NCBI GenBank assembly: GCA_015207585.1
Contig: JADEWQ010000017.1
Coordinates: 1 to 64,000, forward strand
Direction: 5' to 3'
Source: Pleurocapsales cyanobacterium LEGE 06147
GTDB taxonomy: Bacteria; Cyanobacteriota; Cyanobacteriia; Cyanobacteriales; Xenococcaceae
Length of the DNA: 64,000 nt
Shown here piece by piece: positions 676-62,058 of the stretch; positions within the stretch are counted from its first letter, which is position 1, and every line of letters starts with the position of its first letter. Below the pieces are notes generated by a model. That model did not search any database, had not been told where the DNA came from, and saw nothing but the letters and a program-made list of their open reading frames with translations. The translations under genes and the position numbers were made by a program.

Positions 676-1107
676 AAAGACTGATGAAGTGAACTACACG
701 CGATAAATTGCAAGCTTTGAGTCTCCTGTGCCGTTGCCCCCCATGCAAGCATAAATTGGATTTACACGGCATTTCTAATATTTCTACCTTTATCTTCTCC
801 GTAAAAAAACTCGCACAGAAATCCCAGTTTCACATCTGTTTAACGCTCAACAAGTTTTAATTGTTACACAACTTCTTCTACTACGGAGATTAGTTTGTTA
901 GCTTGGTTTTTGCTGTTTGCAATGCAGTGCAATCCAAGTTGCAATCTCCTAATAAAAAGGTTTTAAGTATTAAATTATTATAGATTTGAAATAATTGTAC
1001 AATAGCTCAAACGTTTGTTAAAGAAAAATAATGCTCTGTCCTCCAGCAAGCTGGGGAACTTCTTTTAGAAGATAGTTAAGACTTTTTCTTTGGAAATATA
1101 AAATTAA
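676..1107. other. Intergenic, no gene seen
   Basis: This is about 430 bases of AT-rich DNA between the 5' end of the broken yihY gene and the 3' end of the large membrane hydrolase. A weak stem (CCAGC-AA-GCTGG, 1043-1054) lies downstream of the leftward gene and could belong to a terminator, but it is too short to call. I see no reading frame with coding character. Confidence 0.5.
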
Positions 1108-4100
1108 TTAAAGTGTCATCGGGGCGATAGGTTCGATATCCGGATCGTACCCGCCTATCTGATTGGTACGCAAAACCCAGACTGATGCTCCATGTTCCAG
1201 AAAAACTTTAACGATCGTATCGCTGGCTTTACGGGGTAGAAGTGTTCGCCAACTGCCCAAGCCGACCCAAAGGTTGCGCAGGGGTTCATCTTCCATGGTC
1301 GTACCTAAATTGAATTCATTAGTTTCCCAATCAGTGCGGGGAGCCCCCAGAGGTTGCAATTTGCGGTATAGCTTTTCTTTTACGTCCAGAAGTTGCTGAT
1401 AGCGCGGTGCCTGAGATGGGTTATCCGCTAGCCAGGTTTGTAGCAGGGTCTGATTGGCAGCGATCGCTTGAGAAAGGGAGCGAATGCTAGCAAACAAGGC
1501 TTGATTAGAATCCTGAGCGCAGTTATTAGCAGGACCGACGTAGGTTGCCCCCGTACCATCCCCAATACGATAGCGGGCGGTCATTGCCTCTAGTTGGTTT
1601 AACATATTACTGAGAGCAGATCGGCGAGTCCCGTTGATGTCGAAGTCGCCTGTAAATGGCTCGAACTTAATCAAAATATCGCAAACAGGGCGATTACCCA
1701 ACCAACCAAACTGGCGATCGCCCATGTAGCGCGACCAGTGGATGGTTCCTGCTGTTAAGCCGTCGGTATTGTGGGTATATACTTGGTAATACTGAATTTC
1801 AAATCGTAATTCATCACTGAGCGGATCGCGAATCACGGTGGCGAGTCCATAGGCAAAGTGACCGAAAAAGATTGGCGTCGCGGCTGCGGGTTCTTTCTTA
1901 TTCCCACCAATGCCACCATAGACGTGCAGCAGGAGTGCGCGATCGCCCTTTTTCCAGTCGTCGATGGCAGCTTGAATCTGTTCGGTGTAGTGCTTTCCTA
2001 CACACAATACCGAGGAGATTTTGCCTTTTTGTGCCGCCGCATTTGCCCAGGATTCCCGCCCAATATAGCGGTAGGAAGCTTTACTGCCAAACACCACTCG
2101 GTCGGGCTGGAGGCGAAACAGCGAGCGGGGAGCTAACGCCTGCACCACAAAGAATCCGTCAGCATCTTTGGCACCGTAGATGTACCATCCCGTTTCATTC
2201 AGCGGAGTTTGTTCCAAATTGTGCGTGCTAGAAGGATAGCTGCCATAAGCTTGAGCCAGGAGTACCTGAGGCAAGCGCACCACTTCTTCCCAGCCATCAA
2301 ACTGGCGGGAGATGGAATTAAAATGCTTGACTTGAAAGCGATCGGTGTTCGGAATCGGAGCTAAAAATTGCACCAGAGCGTAGTAGCGTCCGGTAATCTC
2401 AATTGGTTGATGGGCAATGCGTAGAATAGGATAATTCCTGGCTTCTGACTGCTCAACTCGAACCTCTCCCGCCAGCATCACAATCAGGTCATCGGTCGGG
2501 TGGGAGCCTGCCAGTGATTCTAGCGGACCTACCTGTCGCCAGTGGTTCAGCCGTTCTGGATGAATGCTACCACCATAGCGGCTGGAATATTCAGCATCGA
2601 CGCTAAAGTGAACGTCGCGAGTTACAGCTCGCACCAGTTCTTTCACAATGGGAAGATCCATCCACCGCAGCATCACCGTTTGCCCTACCAACGATTCATA
2701 GCCGCGCGGAGCGTGATGCACTTCAAACCAGACCCCCCTCACTTCACGACGTTCGCTCGACTTGGGCAAAATTAAACGACCTATCCAGGGAGCGATCGGA
2801 CGATACCATTGCCAATCGACGGTTTGAGTTAAGGGATAGTAGGTATAGTTATTAAAATCCGCTTGCTTGTAACGTTCGTAATTGCTAATTTGTCTGGGAC
2901 GGTGGGGCGTGGAAACTAGAAGACGACCTTGCAAAATTGAAAGAATAATTGCGATCGTGTGTTGGAGATGGCTCTGACCATTGGGCAATAATGCATTAGG
3001 GTCCATCATTCCTCCCGGAACCTGATGTCCCATCGGACCGAGTGAAATTTGGCTGATTTTGCCCTTACGCATTGCCCGATTCCAATATGACAAAGGTAAC
3101 CACTTTCGTCGCCCTGGAAACAGAATCGGACCCAGATGAGCAACTCCATCTTTATCGCCTACTAAATGGTAAAGATGCTCTAGTTTCAAAAAATTATTGT
3201 TGGCACTCATCACGCCACCCAGAGAAATCACCTCAATCTCACCCCCCAAGACACGCCTGAGATAGGGTGCCACCGCTACCGACATCTGAGCACCGCCGCT
3301 ATAGCCAATCAGAGTAATGGGGATGCCTTCACCAGCTTGATAACCCCGTTCGAGCAAGCCTTTATAAAGTACCTTGGCAATTCCCTGATTGTAGATGGGT
3401 CCATAACGCTTGTCGGCGGATACGGCAACAATCCAAGCATTGCGGAGATTCACCATGAAGCCCATAAGAGATGTTGGATTTTGCCACCGCATTTTGTCTG
3501 CCAGCCGCCAAACCCATGCCAGAGGACGATCCTGATTTAAGGGCTTATTTAAAACTGAATACAGCATTAACCCTTGAACGAACTCCACATCCTTCGGTAA
3601 GACTACCTGGAGTGCCCGAACGAATTCGACCACATCTGGCGTATACTCTTCACTTGACTGTCCCACCCCATCCACATAGACGACATAGCGGGAGGGGCGA
3701 TCCTGCGTAGCAGGTGCTGCCGCACCGCTTTGACCGAGCGGTTGCGACGGAACGATTTGTGCAGGGCGATCGTCCAGGTTATCGCCGTACCAGCCCGCCC
3801 ACCAACCTAAAGTTTCCAGAGGAGCCAAGAGTCCGGCAAAGACGATCGCAACTATCCCAATCCAGGTTAGCTCTACAATCCAGCGCGCCAGCCGAGGGAG
3901 GTTTTCATACCAGCCAAACAGGTTTTCATGAATCGGATCTAGTAGGATGGCGATGAGTAGAAACAGCAGAATCATCCCTAGCAAGATCAGTCCCAGTCGA
4001 ACCGCCTGGGGAATGCCCTGCAATCGATGATTTAAACGCACTCCGAGGGTCTCAGTATCCGCAGATAGAACCCGAACATTATCGAGACTCGGGGATGTGA

Positions 4101-4833
4101 TAGCAACGGTTGCATCGCGGGGTTGGGTTGATATAGAGAACGATAAAGCAGGCGACTGGGCTTGGCGCTCTTCTAATGCTCGCTCAGACTCGAGTGAGGA
4201 AAGCCGAGTCTCTAAACCGGACTGGACAATTGCTCTTAATTCCGAACGCTTATTAGCTAGCTCGACCCCTGACACCCTTTTAGTTAAGCGTTGTCCGAAT
4301 TTGGCAATCGGCTGTCCGATAGTGCCTTCTAAAACTTGGAGCATAAACCAGCCAAACGCCACATGGACAAAAGCTGATGCTGCACTTACCTGGGCGATCG
4401 CGCTAAACCCCACGACCATCACCAGCAAATGCCAGACCGATAAAAGGTTGAGAATCGGCACTCCAGCATAGGGTAAAGCGGCAAGAAAACTAAAATGTAA
4501 CGGGGCATAACTCAGCCCCAAGGCTTTGACGAGATCGCTCCAGGGTATGCGCACTAAGCCAGGCAGCCAACCGATCGACCAGGTGCTGAACACCAAAAAA
4601 AGAAAACCACAGGTGAATAAAACTGCATTCAATAACAGGCTAAAAACAAAGCGTGCTGGTCGTACCCGATTAATGAACAAAATAATGCTCTGTCCCACTC
4701 CTAATGAGAGTCCGGCTGTCAAGACGACCAGGAGGGCTGCTGTTTGTCCCTCCGGAAGATTGATAATTCTTTGGAATGCTTCTTGGCTGAGGGAAAAGGC
4801 TCCGCCAATCAGATCGCCAAGGTGCTCAAACAT
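1108..4833 (-). CDS. Large membrane protein with alpha/beta-hydrolase-like domain, unknown function
   Basis: ATG 4833 is preferred over TTG 4839 because AGGAG lies 8 bases upstream of it; the product is about 1241 residues. Residues 25-180 hold four or five hydrophobic segments, and about 285-350 hold two or three more. A central domain (about 385-650) looks like an alpha/beta hydrolase: it opens YVVYVDGVGQSS, has a nucleophile-elbow motif GYSGG near 511, an Asp in VGDKDG near 563 and a His in MGHQVPGG near 605, in the order Ser-Asp-His. The C-terminal 500 residues are soluble and I do not recognise them. A GAAAPATQ tract near residue 370, between membrane and hydrolase domains, is encoded by a dispersed repeat (3699-3728). 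The gene lies 46 bases downstream of a DUF3611 gene on the same strand, so the two are probably co-transcribed. The triad is inferred from motif order only. Confidence 0.7.
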   Translation of the reverse strand: MFEHLGDLIGGAFSLSQEAFQRIINLPEGQTAALLVVLTAGLSLGVGQSIILFINRVRPARFVFSLLLNAVLFTCGFLFLVFSTWSIGWLPGLVRIPWSDLVKALGLSYAPLHFSFLAALPYAGVPILNLLSVWHLLVMVVGFSAIAQVSAASAFVHVAFGWFMLQVLEGTIGQPIAKFGQRLTKRVSGVELANKRSELRAIVQSGLETRLSSLESERALEERQAQSPALSFSISTQPRDATVAITSPSLDNVRVLSADTETLGVRLNHRLQGIPQAVRLGLILLGMILLFLLIAILLDPIHENLFGWYENLPRLARWIVELTWIGIVAIVFAGLLAPLETLGWWAGWYGDNLDDRPAQIVPSQPLGQSGAAAPATQDRPSRYVVYVDGVGQSSEEYTPDVVEFVRALQVVLPKDVEFVQGLMLYSVLNKPLNQDRPLAWVWRLADKMRWQNPTSLMGFMVNLRNAWIVAVSADKRYGPIYNQGIAKVLYKGLLERGYQAGEGIPITLIGYSGGAQMSVAVAPYLRRVLGGEIEVISLGGVMSANNNFLKLEHLYHLVGDKDGVAHLGPILFPGRRKWLPLSYWNRAMRKGKISQISLGPMGHQVPGGMMDPNALLPNGQSHLQHTIAIILSILQGRLLVSTPHRPRQISNYERYKQADFNNYTYYPLTQTVDWQWYRPIAPWIGRLILPKSSERREVRGVWFEVHHAPRGYESLVGQTVMLRWMDLPIVKELVRAVTRDVHFSVDAEYSSRYGGSIHPERLNHWRQVGPLESLAGSHPTDDLIVMLAGEVRVEQSEARNYPILRIAHQPIEITGRYYALVQFLAPIPNTDRFQVKHFNSISRQFDGWEEVVRLPQVLLAQAYGSYPSSTHNLEQTPLNETGWYIYGAKDADGFFVVQALAPRSLFRLQPDRVVFGSKASYRYIGRESWANAAAQKGKISSVLCVGKHYTEQIQAAIDDWKKGDRALLLHVYGGIGGNKKEPAAATPIFFGHFAYGLATVIRDPLSDELRFEIQYYQVYTHNTDGLTAGTIHWSRYMGDRQFGWLGNRPVCDILIKFEPFTGDFDINGTRRSALSNMLNQLEAMTARYRIGDGTGATYVGPANNCAQDSNQALFASIRSLSQAIAANQTLLQTWLADNPSQAPRYQQLLDVKEKLYRKLQPLGAPRTDWETNEFNLGTTMEDEPLRNLWVGLGSWRTLLPRKASDTIVKVFLEHGASVWVLRTNQIGGYDPDIEPIAPMTL
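3699..3728 (-). repeat. Two-hairpin GGTGCGGCAGCACC repeat, copy 1 (inside a CDS)
   Basis: On the minus strand this reads GCGGTGCGGCAGCACC followed by TGCTACGCAGGATC. It is almost the same as the copy at 13586. It forms GGTGC-GGCA-GCACC plus a second small hairpin. It is in frame inside the large membrane hydrolase and encodes the GAAAPATQD linker. Confidence 0.75.
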
Positions 4834-4879
4834 TTTCAAATCTCCTGGTTAAATTTGACAAGATTTGTAGCTATTGATA

Positions 4880-13508: not shown

Positions 13509-13585
13509 GACAAACATTGTCTATTAGCAAAAATAAAAAGTTCGGCTTAAAACAATTGCGCACTGCCGAAGTCAGCTCTCTTCGA

Positions 13586-13615
13586 GGTGCGGCAGCACCT
13601 GCCACGCAGGATCGC
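13586..13615 (+). repeat. Two-hairpin GGTGCGGCAGCACC repeat, copy 2
   Basis: This intergenic copy reads GGTGCGGCAGCACC followed by TGCCACGCAGGATCGC. GGTGC-GGCA-GCACC and CCTGC-CAC-GCAGG are two adjacent hairpins. It differs from copy 1 by a single base in the second loop. Confidence 0.8.
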
Positions 13616-22441: not shown

Positions 22442-22469
22442 GTAGGGACGTAGCATGCTACGTCCCTAC
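22442..22469. repeat. Perfect 28-bp palindrome
   Basis: GTAGGGACGTAGCA is followed at once by its exact reverse complement. It lies just after the methyltransferase stop. It belongs to the same structural class as the palindromes at 26493, 32192, 33518, 46275, 54386 and 62072, with a different arm sequence. It could also act as a transcript-end hairpin. Confidence 0.75.
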
Positions 22470-26584: not shown

Positions 26585-27928
26585 TTATTGGAAACCCTTA
26601 CTTTTTTTCTTTTTCTTTTTAGTTTTAGATTTTTGTACTTGTGCTACTGCTTCGGTAAACAAATCGTGTAAATGTTGAGGCACGCTCGCAATTTCGGGTA
26701 GGGTTGGTTCGAGGCGTTTTTCATATTTTTTCAGAGTTTCTGGTAAATCCCGTTCGAGATTGTAATCGGGAAGATTGAGGGTAGTTTGCAAAACTTTTTC
26801 TAACTGAGGAGCATATTGCTGTTGTAGCTGCTGCCAAATATAGTAGTTAATCTGGGGGTCTTCTAGATATTTGCGTACTAATAGTTGACAAGTTTGATTT
26901 TCTTCTGATGCTTCTGATGCCAAAAGAGTAGTTAACTTAGTGTAGGTAGAAAGATACATCTGTCCCCAGCGAGGATGAGAAAAAACCGTAACTTGTTCGG
27001 CTTGTTTTATTTCCGGCGGTAGCTCGATTTTGGACGTGACGAGGGATAATTTTTCCTTACTTTTAAGCATTTTATCGACAGCCTCTGCTTCGGCACCAAC
27101 GGCTACAGCTGCTTCTTCTATTTCTTCCTCATCTGCTCCCGTTTCCCGAATTAACTCCTGTACAGATTTCGAGCTATCGATGCCTGCTAGTCTTCGCTCG
27201 CTCATTTTAGCTTGCAACTCGCCCAGTTGTTGATTCAGTTTGTATCCTGGTAAAGTAAGGCGATCGCTCCCGAAAAAATCAACAAATTCTTGATGATAAA
27301 TGACAACGGATTCCCAAGCTTGTTCTAACAAATCGGGTGCATCGCCATAGAGGGAATCGGGATAGTTGCGTTTAAATTCACCAATGGCAACTGCTAACTT
27401 GGGTTGGCTCAATCTCCCTTTAGTAATAAAGTCGCTAAACAGCATCCAATTGCGATAGCCGCTTTGCGGCTCTGCCTTCGGCAGCTCGTCGAGGGGTGCA
27501 ATTCGGGTTAGGAGAATTTCTCCTCCTTGCCAGCGCGACTTTTCGTTAGTTGGTATGTTGGGAGATAAGAAAACGCGGTAATGCTTGGCAGTTAACCAGT
27601 TCATTAACTCCAAGCAATCGGGTAAAATTTGCTTGATTTCAAATAACCCAGTAAAACTATCTTGCCATTTGTTGAGGAGGTTGCGATCTCCGTCAGTCAA
27701 ATCTGTTGCTTGAGCCAAAAAAAGTTCTATCGGTGTTTTTTCTCCTACTTTACCTGCTGTAATAAAAGTATCGAGAATTAAATTTTGTTGCTTAATGCCA
27801 TAGCGTTCTTTGTTCCCCTGTTGAGCAGCATAGGATTCTAGAGCAACTGCAATTTCTCCTTCGGCATCGTAAACAAAATCAACTAAAGCCTGCTTCAGTT
27901 CAACAGCTCGTTCTAACTGGGGGTTCAT
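26585..27928 (-). CDS. Unrecognised cyanobacterial protein with Lys-rich tail
   Basis: The 447-residue protein starts at ATG 27928. It is soluble, mostly helical and acidic, and ends in a strongly basic tail (VQKSKTKKKKKKSKGFQ). There is an acidic Ala-rich segment (ADEEEIEEAAVAVGAEAEAV) near residue 265-290. A two-hairpin repeat (27457-27484) lies inside the frame and encodes residues around DELPKAEPQSG near 150. I recognise no characterised domain. It stands alone, convergent with the vapBC pair. Confidence 0.6.
   Translation of the reverse strand: MNPQLERAVELKQALVDFVYDAEGEIAVALESYAAQQGNKERYGIKQQNLILDTFITAGKVGEKTPIELFLAQATDLTDGDRNLLNKWQDSFTGLFEIKQILPDCLELMNWLTAKHYRVFLSPNIPTNEKSRWQGGEILLTRIAPLDELPKAEPQSGYRNWMLFSDFITKGRLSQPKLAVAIGEFKRNYPDSLYGDAPDLLEQAWESVVIYHQEFVDFFGSDRLTLPGYKLNQQLGELQAKMSERRLAGIDSSKSVQELIRETGADEEEIEEAAVAVGAEAEAVDKMLKSKEKLSLVTSKIELPPEIKQAEQVTVFSHPRWGQMYLSTYTKLTTLLASEASEENQTCQLLVRKYLEDPQINYYIWQQLQQQYAPQLEKVLQTTLNLPDYNLERDLPETLKKYEKRLEPTLPEIASVPQHLHDLFTEAVAQVQKSKTKKKKKKSKGFQ
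27457..27484. repeat. Two-hairpin repeat variant inside a CDS
   Basis: AGCCGC-TTT-GCGGCT is directly followed by CTGCC-TTC-GGCAG: two perfect adjacent hairpins, the same layout as the GGTGCGGCAGCACC repeats. It is in frame within the 447-residue unknown protein. Confidence 0.6.
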
Positions 27929-44091: not shown

Positions 44092-44778
44092 CTAGTTGTG
44101 GCGCGGTGCGGCAGCACCCGCATTCGCGGGAGCGCTATAAGGCTCTAAAAAACCTTTGTCACGCCATTTTTGGATAAACCAATCGATAACCATGCATAGT
44201 TTTTCTTCTTCAGGTTCATAATACTTCTCGGTGGTAGGCATAGGAAAGAAATAACCAATTGAGTACAAAAACACCTCCAGATCTTGCTCTAAATTATCAA
44301 TTTGAAATAATTGTGCCTGAATTCCTTCCTGTAAGATGTTCAAAATGTTATTCTTGACTGCCTTACCCTGTCCTTTCTGCAACTCTGGTTTCAGGCGAAT
44401 CGCAGCACGAGCAAGCTCAGCAGCATGAGATCCACTAAGACGATTCTCTCGAACTGCACGGAAACGATTGACAAGATAAGCCTTAAGTTTTTCCGTCGCG
44501 GGCATTTGCGAGCGCAAAATCTTCTCAGTATCTGCAATATGTTGCCGAGTATAGGCTTCAGCCGTCGCAATCAAAATTTCATTTTTGTTTTTGAAATACA
44601 AATACAGTGTCCCGACCGCTATTCCAACATCTTCAGCAATTTCCTGCATCGTTGTTTTCCTGACCTCGTATTGATTCAGCCGCCGCTTGGCTGCATTCAA
44701 GATTGCTTCTCGTTTTGCCTCATCCAGTCGTTGCACGATCGGGTTAATATCTTTTCTGCACTGTGACTTTAATGCCAT
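44092..44778 (-). CDS. TetR-family transcriptional regulator
   Basis: ATG 44778 gives 228 residues and overlaps the P450 stop by 35 bases; a GTG at 44736 would start just after the P450 stop, and ATG 44814 is also open. The N-terminal helix-turn-helix is clear: AKREAILNAAKRRLNQYEVR, KTTMQEIAEDVGIAVGTLYL, YFKNKNEILIATAEAYTRQH. The rest is a ligand-binding helical domain. The last residues (SAPANAGAAAPRHN) are encoded by a dispersed two-hairpin repeat, so the C-terminus has been extended or replaced. It lies at the end of a P450 operon and may regulate it. Confidence 0.85.
   Translation of the reverse strand: MALKSQCRKDINPIVQRLDEAKREAILNAAKRRLNQYEVRKTTMQEIAEDVGIAVGTLYLYFKNKNEILIATAEAYTRQHIADTEKILRSQMPATEKLKAYLVNRFRAVRENRLSGSHAAELARAAIRLKPELQKGQGKAVKNNILNILQEGIQAQLFQIDNLEQDLEVFLYSIGYFFPMPTTEKYYEPEEEKLCMVIDWFIQKWRDKGFLEPYSAPANAGAAAPRHN
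44103..44135 (+). repeat. Two-hairpin GGTGCGGCAGCACC repeat, copy 3 (at a CDS end)
   Basis: GCGGTGCGGCAGCACC is followed by CGCATTCGCGGGAGCGC. Hairpins are GGTGC-GGCA-GCACC and CCCGC-ATTC-GCGGG. It encodes the last residues of the TetR regulator, including GAAAP, on the minus strand. Confidence 0.75.
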
Positions 44779-46138
44779 ATTTCGGACGCAAAGTAAATCG
44801 CGGCTCGATTTCAATGGACTGATGGGGAACTAACTCAATACTAAAACGCTGGGCGATCGCTGCCAAAATCAGGGTCGATTCCATGAGTGCAAAATTCTTG
44901 CCAATGCAGGTGTGTGACCCCGCACCAAAGGGAAGATAAGCAAATTTTGGTCTTTGAATCACGTTTTCAGGCAGGAAGCGATCGGGATCGAATCGTTCTG
45001 GATTATCCCAAAACTCAGGATGACGGGAAATGAAATAAACGGCAATATTGAAAATTGACCCCTTAGGAATGAAATATCCCTGAATTTCGTCATCTTCTAG
45101 GGCAACTCTGGGTGCTAGCCCCAACCCAGGAGGGCGAAGGCGTAAAGATTCATCCAATACGCGGCGAGTGTATTGCAGTTGGGGTAGTTTCTCAAACGTT
45201 AGGTCATCCTCATTGAAAACAGTTTGTACCTCATCCAGTAGATTTGCCATCACATCAGGATGAGTCCCCAACAGATACCATGTCCAAGCCAACGTCGTTG
45301 CTGTGGTTTCATGTCCGGCATCGATTAATGTAATCACTTCATCGTGCAGTTGGCGATCGCTCATTCCTTCCCCAGTAACTTCATCCCGGACAGTTAAAAG
45401 CATCGATAGCAGATCGCGGTTATCTATCAGATTGTGACGGCGCGCCTGGATAATCTCTAGAACGACGCGATCGAGGGTTTGTTTTGCTTGACGAAACTTA
45501 AGATTTCGAGGAGTGGGTATCCAGACTGGCGGTGCAAGTGGAGTATTTATTCGGTAATAGACATATTCCAAAGCTGTCCGAAAGGCTTGTCCCAATCTGT
45601 TATACTCGCCACTGATATCTACGCTGAATAGAGCCGAACTGACAATCTTCAATGTGAGGCGCGTCATTTCGGCTGCAATGTCAATCACTTCACCTTCTGG
45701 CTTTTTTTCCCATTCGCGCAGGAGAGATTGCACACAACTCAGCATCACTGCATAGAGGTTGACCAGTTGCTTTTGATGAAATGCAGGTTGCATCAAGCGG
45801 CGGTGCTTGAGCCACAACTCTCCTTCACTGGTGAACAGCCCTTGCCCCTGGACTAAGCCCATCGGTTTTAGAAAGAAATCAGGCTTTCTGTATCGTTCTT
45901 GGTGGGTAGATAAGATATGTTCTGCGTGGTCTGGATGAGCCGCAAGGTAAAATGTAAAGCCCGGCACGATCGGCAAGCGGACTAAATCCCCATACTCGCG
46001 CCACAGGCGATCGAGATATTCAATCGGCTGGTGCTGAAGTTCTGAGAGTTTCAAGAGTAAATATCCTCGGGGTCCTGGTGGCAAGTGGCGATTGCGCTTT
46101 TCTATCACTTGGGCTGAAGGTGCTTGATTTTTAGACAT
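44744..46138 (-). CDS. Cytochrome P450
   Basis: ATG 46138 is preferred over the extension to 46222 because AGGTGGGAA lies upstream and MSKNQAPSAQVIEKR leads into RHLPPGPRGYLLLKLSELQ. The product is 464 residues. The I-helix (LIDAGHETTATTLAW), ExxR helix (ESLRLRPP) and haem loop FGAGSHTCIGKNFALME with its Cys near 412 are all intact, so it should be active. The layout resembles the CYP110-type P450s of cyanobacteria. It is a monooxygenase needing external electron transfer; none is encoded beside it. A TetR gene overlaps its 3' end. Confidence 0.92.
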   Translation of the reverse strand: MSKNQAPSAQVIEKRNRHLPPGPRGYLLLKLSELQHQPIEYLDRLWREYGDLVRLPIVPGFTFYLAAHPDHAEHILSTHQERYRKPDFFLKPMGLVQGQGLFTSEGELWLKHRRLMQPAFHQKQLVNLYAVMLSCVQSLLREWEKKPEGEVIDIAAEMTRLTLKIVSSALFSVDISGEYNRLGQAFRTALEYVYYRINTPLAPPVWIPTPRNLKFRQAKQTLDRVVLEIIQARRHNLIDNRDLLSMLLTVRDEVTGEGMSDRQLHDEVITLIDAGHETTATTLAWTWYLLGTHPDVMANLLDEVQTVFNEDDLTFEKLPQLQYTRRVLDESLRLRPPGLGLAPRVALEDDEIQGYFIPKGSIFNIAVYFISRHPEFWDNPERFDPDRFLPENVIQRPKFAYLPFGAGSHTCIGKNFALMESTLILAAIAQRFSIELVPHQSIEIEPRFTLRPKYGIKVTVQKRY

Positions 46139-60626: not shown

Positions 60627-60658
60627 GCGGTGCGGCAGCATCCGCTTTGCGGGATCGC
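60627..60658 (+). repeat. Two-hairpin GGTGCGGCAGCACC repeat, copy 4
   Basis: GCGGTGCGGCAGCATCCGCTTTGCGGGATCGC. The first hairpin is GGTGC-GGCA-GCATC (one mismatch), the second TCCGC-TTT-GCGGGA. It lies 62 bases upstream of glcE. Confidence 0.75.
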
Positions 60659-60720: not shown

Positions 60721-62058
60721 ATGACTAAAGCGATCGCTACTCAAATTCAATCTTTGTTTAATAATGATGCCGAATTAGTCGAATTTGCCAATGCTAATTC
60801 ATCTTGGCAACAGAAAATAGCAGAGGCAGTGATTTCTCCTCAATCTTCCTGTCTAATTTTTCCCCATACAGTAGAAACTCTTTCCGCGATCGTCAAACAA
60901 GCAGGGCAGCAGCAATGGCAAATTTTACCTTGTGGTAATGGTAGCAAATTGGATTGGGGAGGATTGGCTAAAGAGGTAGAGCTTGTTGTCAGTATCCAAA
61001 AGCTAAATCGCATCATCGAACATGCTGTAGGGGACTTAACAGTTACAGTAGAGGCAGGAGTTAAACTAGCCGATTTACAAGCCGCTTTACAACCGACAGG
61101 TCAATTTTTACCTATAGATCCAGCCTTTTCGGAAAGAGCGACTATCGGTGGCATTGTTGCCACAGGAGATACCGGAAGTTGGCGACAACGGTATGGTGGT
61201 ATCAGGGATATGGTTTTGGGCTTATCTTTTGTCCGCGCTGACGGCAAAATTGCCAAAGCTGGAGGAAGGGTAGTTAAAAATGTGGCAGGTTATGACTTGA
61301 TGAAGCTGCTGACTGGTTCTTATGGAACTTTAGGAATTATTACTCAAATTACTTTTCGTACCTATCCTTTACCAGAAGCGTCGGGGACAATAGTGCTGAC
61401 GGGAGAAGCAGAAGCAGTGGCAAAAGCAACGCAGACGCTACGAAATTCCTCTCTTACGCCCACTGCCGCAGACTTGCTTTCGGCATCGGTAATAGAAGAG
61501 TTGGCAATAGGAAAAGAATGCGGTTTGCTCGTACGCTTTCAGACTATAAGTGAAAGTGTTAGAAAACAATTAGCTCAACTAGAAGCGATCGCACGACAGT
61601 TAGATTTACGGATTAGTTTTTATCAGGATAAAGATGAGACAGACTTATGGCAGAGATTGCCACAAATAATCCGTCTGCCTAGCAATGACATGGCAATTAT
61701 TTGCAAAATAGGAGTAGTACCCTCTGCCGCCGTGGGGATGCTCCAAGAACTAACTAAAATTACTGCCAGTCGGAGTTTGGGAATGATTCATACGGGTAGT
61801 GGTATTGGCATATTGCAGTTTAACAGCGAAGACAGGAATGGGATTGAGGAGATGCGATCCCGCTGTGCGGGTGCTGCCGCACCGCTCTGCCAACAACATC
61901 ATGGGTTTTTAACTATCTTGACAGCACCCAAATCTATTAAACAGCAACTCGACCCCTGGGGTTATACGGGTAATGCCTTAGAGATGATGCGCACGATTAA
62001 ACAAAAATTCGATTCTCAGAATATTTTAAGTCCCGGCCGTTTTGTGGGTGGAATTTAA
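60721..62058 (+). CDS. glcE: Glycolate dehydrogenase FAD-binding subunit GlcE
   Basis: The 445-residue protein has an FAD-binding type 4 domain: ILPCGNGSKLDWGGLAKEVE near 70, LTVTVEAGVKLADLQAALQP, SERATIGGIVATGDTGSWRQ and GRVVKNVAGYDLMKLLTGSY. Length is somewhat above the E. coli GlcE. It oxidises glycolate in photorespiration together with GlcD and GlcF; glcD is not in the window. A GAAAP-coding repeat is inserted in frame near residues 378-388 (MRSRCAGAAAPLCQQHHG). glcF follows 175 bases downstream. Confidence 0.92.
   Translation: MTKAIATQIQSLFNNDAELVEFANANSSWQQKIAEAVISPQSSCLIFPHTVETLSAIVKQAGQQQWQILPCGNGSKLDWGGLAKEVELVVSIQKLNRIIEHAVGDLTVTVEAGVKLADLQAALQPTGQFLPIDPAFSERATIGGIVATGDTGSWRQRYGGIRDMVLGLSFVRADGKIAKAGGRVVKNVAGYDLMKLLTGSYGTLGIITQITFRTYPLPEASGTIVLTGEAEAVAKATQTLRNSSLTPTAADLLSASVIEELAIGKECGLLVRFQTISESVRKQLAQLEAIARQLDLRISFYQDKDETDLWQRLPQIIRLPSNDMAIICKIGVVPSAAVGMLQELTKITASRSLGMIHTGSGIGILQFNSEDRNGIEEMRSRCAGAAAPLCQQHHGFLTILTAPKSIKQQLDPWGYTGNALEMMRTIKQKFDSQNILSPGRFVGGI
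61854..61885 (-). repeat. Two-hairpin GGTGCGGCAGCACC repeat, copy 5 (inside glcE)
   Basis: On the minus strand it reads GCGGTGCGGCAGCACCCG followed by CACAGCGGGATCGC. It is in frame in glcE and encodes RSRCAGAAAPL. Confidence 0.78.

Follow-up and report, generated by a model that had tools for sequence, protein, structure and literature searches.

What is the short hairpin-forming repeat that recurs in this stretch of cyanobacterial DNA, and how did it come to be read as GAAAP within proteins? The stretch analysed here (the window) comprises 64,000 nucleotides from Pleurocapsales cyanobacterium LEGE 06147, and a preliminary description had named five copies and a variant in it, taking them for a REP-like element that inserts into linkers and loops and supplies new protein segments. 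The core motif, GGTGCGGCAGCACC, gave nine strand-matches in the window, whereas 100 dinucleotide shuffles gave 0.12 on average, and a covariance model derived from 31 distinct copies recovered exactly the five named places at 45.1 to 53.5 bits, with the next best score at 9.4 bits (Table 1). The repeat is thus dispersed beyond what base composition would give. The supposed variant at 27457 does not belong to it, since a search of the genome that allowed three mismatches returned this sequence a single time and the covariance model gave no hit there. An Rfam scan of the window returned one tRNA and nothing else.

Table 1 Copies of the element in the window and the open reading frames that host them. 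Core positions are those of GGTGCGGCAGCACC at up to two mismatches.
Feature	Position	Strand	Core	Insert and hairpin-2 loop	Description
Copy	3697..3728	(-)	3713(-)	24 nt, TAC	Reads in frame as GAAAPATQDR near residue 370 of ORF 1111-4839(-)
Copy	13584..13615	(+)	13586(+)	24 nt, CAC	Left HIP1 half mutated (GAG); outside called genes
Copy	44103..44135	(+)	44105(+)	25 nt, ATTC	Right HIP1 half mutated (GAGCGC); within ORF 44092-44814(-)
Copy	60627..60658	(+)	60629(+)	24 nt, TTT	Hairpin 1 with one change (GCATC); upstream of GlcE ORF, outside called genes
Copy	61854..61885	(-)	61870(-)	24 nt, ACA	In frame, antisense to GlcE ORF
Host ORF of 3697 copy	1111..4839	(-)			1243 aa; no Pfam match at E 0.001
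Host ORF of 44103 copy	44092..44814	(-)			TetR-like, named from translation alone
Host ORF of 61854 copy	60721..62058	(+)			GlcE-like: FAD_binding_4, FAD-oxidase_C

All three copies within ORFs read GAAAP, as had been claimed, and the one in GlcE places eight additional residues after the FAD-binding domain and ahead of the C-terminal Pfam stretch. The copy at 44103 does not add a segment in frame: it is of the frame-shifting 25-nt form and rewrites only the last residues of the TetR-like ORF, which then ends in ...SAPANAGAAAPRHN before its stop (the end without the insert was read by hand from the DNA). Nor do the three copies share an orientation, the 3697 copy lying sense to its host gene and the other two antisense; GAAAP can be read from either strand because the first hairpin is palindromic.

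Across the 6.23-Mb genome (244 contigs), searches at up to three mismatches found a 32-nt form 110 times and a 33-nt form 33 times, and controls with the backward sequence of either form gave 0 matches. Copies collected with their flanks came to 135 distinct ones, 102 of the short form (eight of the 110 were left out) and 33 of the long form. The 32-nt form was present in three of 39 relatives, with 1, 3 and 1 copies, and among 386 genomes of the phylum searched at up to two mismatches only this genome and one other (G136, with 3 copies) matched; within the genomes searched, amplification is confined to the genome studied here. The 33-nt form was sought in this genome and in an exact scan of GTDB, a collection that may omit this genome; the exact scan returned six stretches, two of them cyanobacterial and four from other phyla that we judged to be chance matches. 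A search of plasmids gave five records with partial matches, from Rhizobium, Sinorhizobium and Streptomyces. Carriage by phage was considered and rejected, since the single viral contig that matched has a GC content of 0.71, lacks HIP1 at the locus and was judged a chance match. Separately, a CTCGC...GCGAG variant with GACCGC in place of GATCGC at its end is present once or a few times in relatives (L071, L072, L074 and L075); those at L072 and L075 may belong to a larger repeat, since their flanks are common to both.

The consensus unit is GCG-GTGCGGCAGCAC-CCGC-loop-GCGGG-ATCGC, and subtracting 24 or 25 nt from it leaves GCG plus ATCGC, the HIP1 octamer. What is inserted consists of two adjoining hairpins, GTGC-GGCA-GCAC followed by CCGC-loop-GCGG or a compensated variant of it, with a hairpin-2 loop of 3 nt in the 24-nt insert (32-nt form) and 4 nt in the 25-nt insert (33-nt form). 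The second stem was CCCGC/GCGGG in 80 of the 135 copies, CTCGC/GCGAG in 15 and CCTGC/GCAGG in 14, so that 109 copies carry one of three fully paired, compensated versions, which is evidence that the pairing of hairpin 2 matters; hairpin 1 hardly varies among copies and thus affords no compensation test. Compared with shuffles, the lone strand showed no clear excess of folding strength (RNA z from -0.22 to -0.96, DNA z from -0.68 to -2.02), and in the predicted minimum-energy fold the left half of HIP1 mostly pairs with the first arm of hairpin 2, leaving hairpin 2 unformed. Flipping of the hairpin-2 loop was rejected: AAA/TTT and ATTC/GAAT are both present among the copies, yet no copy had GTA or GCA, as flipping of TAC and TGC would give.

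The unit's ends place the insertion point between bases 3 and 4 of the octamer (GCG^ATCGC, GCGATCGC), a word present 61 times in the window and about once per kb in the sequence examined. Relatives that lack the insert allowed this point to be read directly. Of 34 hosts in a combined query, eleven had no alignable relative; the remaining 23 together with GlcE, GcvP and the 1243-aa protein gave 26 hosts. In the relatives of these, HIP1 stood in exact register at the insertion point in 17 of 114 aligned windows, compared with 14 of 8851 control positions taken in the same frame elsewhere within the same alignments (Fisher P = 4 × 10−25). Nine of the 17 cases came from GlcE and the rest from glucokinase, an S15 peptidase, an AMP-binding enzyme, CoaBC and ScpB, which makes six of the 26 hosts; at these readable empty sites the element is inserted into HIP1, and for the other hosts we infer the same target from the ends of the element. 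The net length difference at the junction was zero in 68 of the 114 windows and ran from -11 to +9 residues in the others. GlcE provides the clearest series, as all 18 relatives aligned (out of 28 that matched) lack exactly eight residues, with HIP1 intact in 9 of them and one base off in 4 more; likewise, 4 of 4 relatives of the D-Tyr-tRNA deacylase lack exactly eight. No target-site duplication was found at the empty sites read (GlcE, glucokinase, the S15 peptidase and others), where a single HIP1 stands with no extra residues. Insertion into genes, as first proposed for this repeat, is therefore borne out by orthologues that lack the insert for most of the hosts that could be aligned.

We next asked how the two length classes are distributed with respect to genes. 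Genes were called with our own codon-usage script, trained on the long ORFs of the window and run on the flanks with the insert taken out, and a location counted as coding at a score of at least 10 in an ORF of at least 100 codons. By this measure 56 of 102 copies of the 24-nt form were coding compared with 3 of 33 copies of the 25-nt form (Fisher P = 1.8 × 10−6, with three other thresholds in agreement); the remaining 46 and 30 copies lay outside called genes. HIP1 sites in the same sequences (the window and about 1.5 kb around each copy) were coding in 277 of 414 cases, which gives odds ratios for a coding location of 0.60 for the 24-nt form and 0.05 for the 25-nt form. The 25-nt form is thus nearly absent from genes, while the 56 coding copies of the 24-nt form are spread over 55 ORFs and add eight residues in frame to each predicted protein at each insertion. 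The preliminary description had missed both HIP1 as the target and the way that loop length (3 or 4 nt) tracks presence in or absence from genes.

Among coding copies, we observed a strong bias toward one reading, in line with what had been suspected from the window. HIP1 phases 0, 1 and 2 account for 145, 108 and 24 of the coding HIP1 sites, and the coding copies fall into these phases as 3, 28 and 4 in the sense orientation and 3, 11 and 7 in the antisense orientation (six-frame chi-square 54.9, P = 1.4 × 10−10). The frames that yield GAAAP are sense phase 1 and antisense phase 2, which together hold 35 of the 56 copies, compared with about 24% expected from the frames of HIP1 (P = 8.5 × 10−10); among copies whose host scores above its Pfam cut-off the enrichment persists (21 of 34, P = 2.7 × 10−6). 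Within HIP1 phase 1 alone the skew toward the sense orientation (28 against 11, P = 0.009) is informative, because a palindromic target should favor neither orientation. The scarcity of stop codons is unremarkable by comparison: the five main element types have none in six frames apart from one antisense frame of the TAC type, and half of the shuffles of one unit are free of stops too.

Two processes could produce this bias, selection on the encoded peptide or a preference at insertion, for example for certain flanking bases or for the direction of transcription. Mismatch-free copies (19 of 32) and mismatched ones (16 of 24) show the bias alike, so that slow purging is not seen and either early selection or biased insertion is indicated; that mismatch-free copies are already biased is what an insertion preference would predict, and sense copies outnumber antisense ones among coding copies (35 to 21), a difference that was not significant by our own estimate. 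However, the two GAAAP frames are opposite to each other in orientation relative to the gene (28 sense in phase 1, 7 antisense in phase 2) and are therefore not predicted by orientation alone, although the phase 2 counts of 7 antisense and 4 sense are too few to test. Phase 0 is the commonest for coding HIP1 (145/277), yet it holds only 6 of the 56 copies and 1 of the 34 with Pfam support, and the frame-shifting form is almost absent from genes. On balance we consider an insertion preference an unlikely source of the bias, if one that keeps some weight, and favor selection on what the inserts encode.

The proteins that carry these inserts are largely recognizable. A Pfam scan of 40 host proteins gave a match for 34 (one of them below its curated cut-off) and none for 6, with names that include DnaG, DnaX, GcvP, glucokinase, Mg-chelatase (presumably a ComM-like protein), ScpB, CoaBC, D-Tyr-tRNA deacylase, Lnt, 4-alpha-glucanotransferase and 2-oxoacid dehydrogenase E2. 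Among proteins with Pfam matches, 14 of 31 inserts lay inside a matched stretch compared with 19.0 expected from coverage (P = 0.027; domain limits were set by hand, and loci L129, L116 and L118 were left out for repeats or for two inserts), so the insertion into linkers and loops that had been proposed holds only as a mild preference. At the position of the insert, the best solved homologue is ten residues shorter in the deacylase and six shorter in GcvP, and in glucokinase the insert falls in a part of the solved homologue that does not align; a structure model of the deacylase had a mean pLDDT of 52.8 and was not used. GcvP is not a clean eight-residue case because the loop varies in length, with relatives lacking the insert. 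One of the loci set aside, L116, contains an NRPS-like gene at 1102-3930(-), with condensation, PP-binding and thioesterase matches, that bears two element copies, both antisense and in frame.

In the 1243-aa protein, two relatives, G008 (88% identical) and G001 (83%), keep similar residues at the place of the insert (SSTAAPVTQERP and SGAAALAEQDIP), and the covariance model scores 14.7 and 13.4 bits there (E = 0.084 and 0.23), values that are weak alone but fall at the orthologous place; we read these residues as decayed shared copies of the element. The paralogue of this protein in the same genome lacks the eight residues there and bears a separate copy elsewhere, and four more distant relatives lack ten residues. 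One could take the likeness of the residues in the two close relatives to mean that they form a conserved protein motif of long standing, or match by chance, with the likeness of the DNA secondary. The retained DNA signal at the two relatives' positions, the absence of the residues from the paralogue and the four distant relatives, and the location of 46 of 102 24-nt copies and 30 of 33 25-nt copies outside called genes leave this reading with hardly any probability, and we retain insertion followed by decay. CoaBC of a further relative, G011, likewise carries eight additional residues where the insert lies (DQASLALRD, compared with DAAAPALRD here), and these are probably a decayed shared copy as well. 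In ScpB of both G008 and G001, nine additional residues stand at the insert position, and they are unrecognizable as the element.

Among known systems, the closest parallel is found in Nostoc. SDRs, described by Elhai et al. 2008, are reportedly 21-27 nt long with a hairpin structure supported by compensatory changes; the element, at 24 nt in 102 copies and 25 nt in 33, falls inside that range, and its hairpin 2 likewise varies by compensation. SDR5 of Nostoc is inserted precisely between nt 3 and 4 of HIP1 (PMC4390886), the point at which our consensus divides into GCG...ATCGC. The element differs in its sequence, as far as compared, and in residing in Xenococcaceae; it has two length classes of opposite gene distribution, and its in-frame use is measured here. 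In six 50-kb stretches of Nostoc plasmids (300 kb), HIP1 was interrupted twice at this very point by 21-nt inserts that are nearly identical to each other and differ in sequence from the element; from their position they would be SDR5. The shared insertion point and these plasmid inserts could also indicate a single family by descent, beyond membership of one type. The sequences nevertheless look different (by eye, with probable SDR5 represented by the two plasmid copies), and a search for the 32-nt form that allowed two mismatches was positive, among the 386 genomes of the phylum, in this genome and G136 only; we regard common descent as possible but lean against it, and take the likeness as one of type. 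One of the 21-nt inserts, at L087 36360-36388 in a plasmid of Nostoc sp. C052, lies in HIP1 inside an annotated IS630 transposase gene and amounts to seven codons. Nostoc elements of the 21-nt type may also enter genes in frame.

In-frame palindromic elements in conserved genes, including genes of DNA replication and repair, are known from Rickettsia and other bacteria (PMC3733652, PMC2229807). Rickettsia palindromic elements (RPE) are given as 105-146 bp long (PMC2229807), and more than half of intragenic GTAG/CGTC inserts as dimers or groups contributing 20-30 residues (PMC3733652). Like these, the element has copies in frame within conserved genes and absent from orthologues, but it contributes eight residues from 24 nt, targets an 8-bp word and carries no GTAG/CGTC tag. 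It shares with MITEs that it is non-autonomous and dispersed, and differs from them in being far shorter and in the lack of target-site duplication at the empty sites read.

REPs and REPINs moved by a RAYT (REP-associated tyrosine transposase) are likewise short hairpin repeats amplified in one lineage, and the preliminary description had proposed such a system. This genome has 14 Y1_Tnp matches and two intact RAYT-like ORFs (58.9 and 69 bits, both under the curated cut-off of 80 bits). A mutated element copy (C191:7080-7111) sits 22 bp before one of these ORFs and one further copy is some 0.75 kb away from a broken RAYT-like stretch of C238; overall, 3 of the 14 matches have a copy within about 750 bp compared with about 0.6 estimated by chance, a post hoc comparison, and two of those three are IS200/IS605 transposases by NCBIfam. 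Against such a link, RAYT-like proteins occur in 25 of 40 genomes, and 22 of the 24 besides this one lack the 32-nt form at up to three mismatches. The consensus of the element contains neither a GTAG nor a CGTC tag and its target is HIP1, whereas a GTAG...CTAC palindrome stands beside or inside the gene at all five RAYT-like loci examined (two here, three in relatives). We thus find it improbable that a RAYT moves the element.

In our reading, the element is probably a minute non-autonomous mobile element of SDR5 type that lives at HIP1 as a unit of 24 or 25 nt. The 24- or 25-nt DNA is apparently mobile; our best guess is that an enzyme acting in trans would join a folded single strand, of DNA or RNA, to HIP1 where the octamer has been cut or nicked. 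Purifying selection would remove frame-shifting copies and copies read as an unfavorable peptide, and with copies purged in this way the protein-borne set would be a filtered sample of many insertions. A further step, which we think doubtful, is that the element is adapted to life in proteins through its frame-keeping 24 nt, a palindromic first hairpin that yields the mild peptide GAAAP from both strands and a target common in genes, and that some inserts may be useful linkers. If this were so, the element would be a standing source of new protein segments, with the insert of the 1243-aa protein, similar in two related species, as an example.

In-frame palindromic elements and HIP1-targeted insertion are each already known, from Rickettsia and other bacteria and from Nostoc, respectively. 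The combination of an eight-codon element in HIP1 with frame-keeping and frame-breaking forms that are oppositely distributed was not found in the literature searched, a body that did not include Elhai et al. 2008. Our data suggest that HIP1-targeted insertion reaches beyond Nostoc. They also amount to a natural experiment, with 135 inserts, of a frame-keeping and a frame-breaking length, at a single 8-base target word, which allows the tolerance of proteins to an eight-residue insertion to be measured in one genome: how often it is accepted, with which peptides and where, in hosts that match the Pfam families of DnaG, DnaX, GcvP, glucokinase and D-Tyr-tRNA deacylase. The availability of empty sites also opens the movement of such tiny elements to direct testing.

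The GTAG-tagged palindromes (GTAGGGACGTAGCATGCTACGTCCCTAC, GTAGGGGCGGTTCGCGAACCGCCCCTAC) merit description in their own right. They occur at 22442-22469 of the window, at 2076-2103 of locus L309 and at 1300-1327 and 1778-1805 of locus L315, and together with the RAYT-like genes of this genome and three relatives they likely form a REP/RAYT pair, judging from their arrangement. A GTAG palindrome is also read inside a RAYT-like gene itself (L315 1778-1805, in the gene at 1501-2157; L310 1045-1701), where it yields the residues CRGGSRTAP with the low-complexity stretch TTTEPTTTEP directly after.
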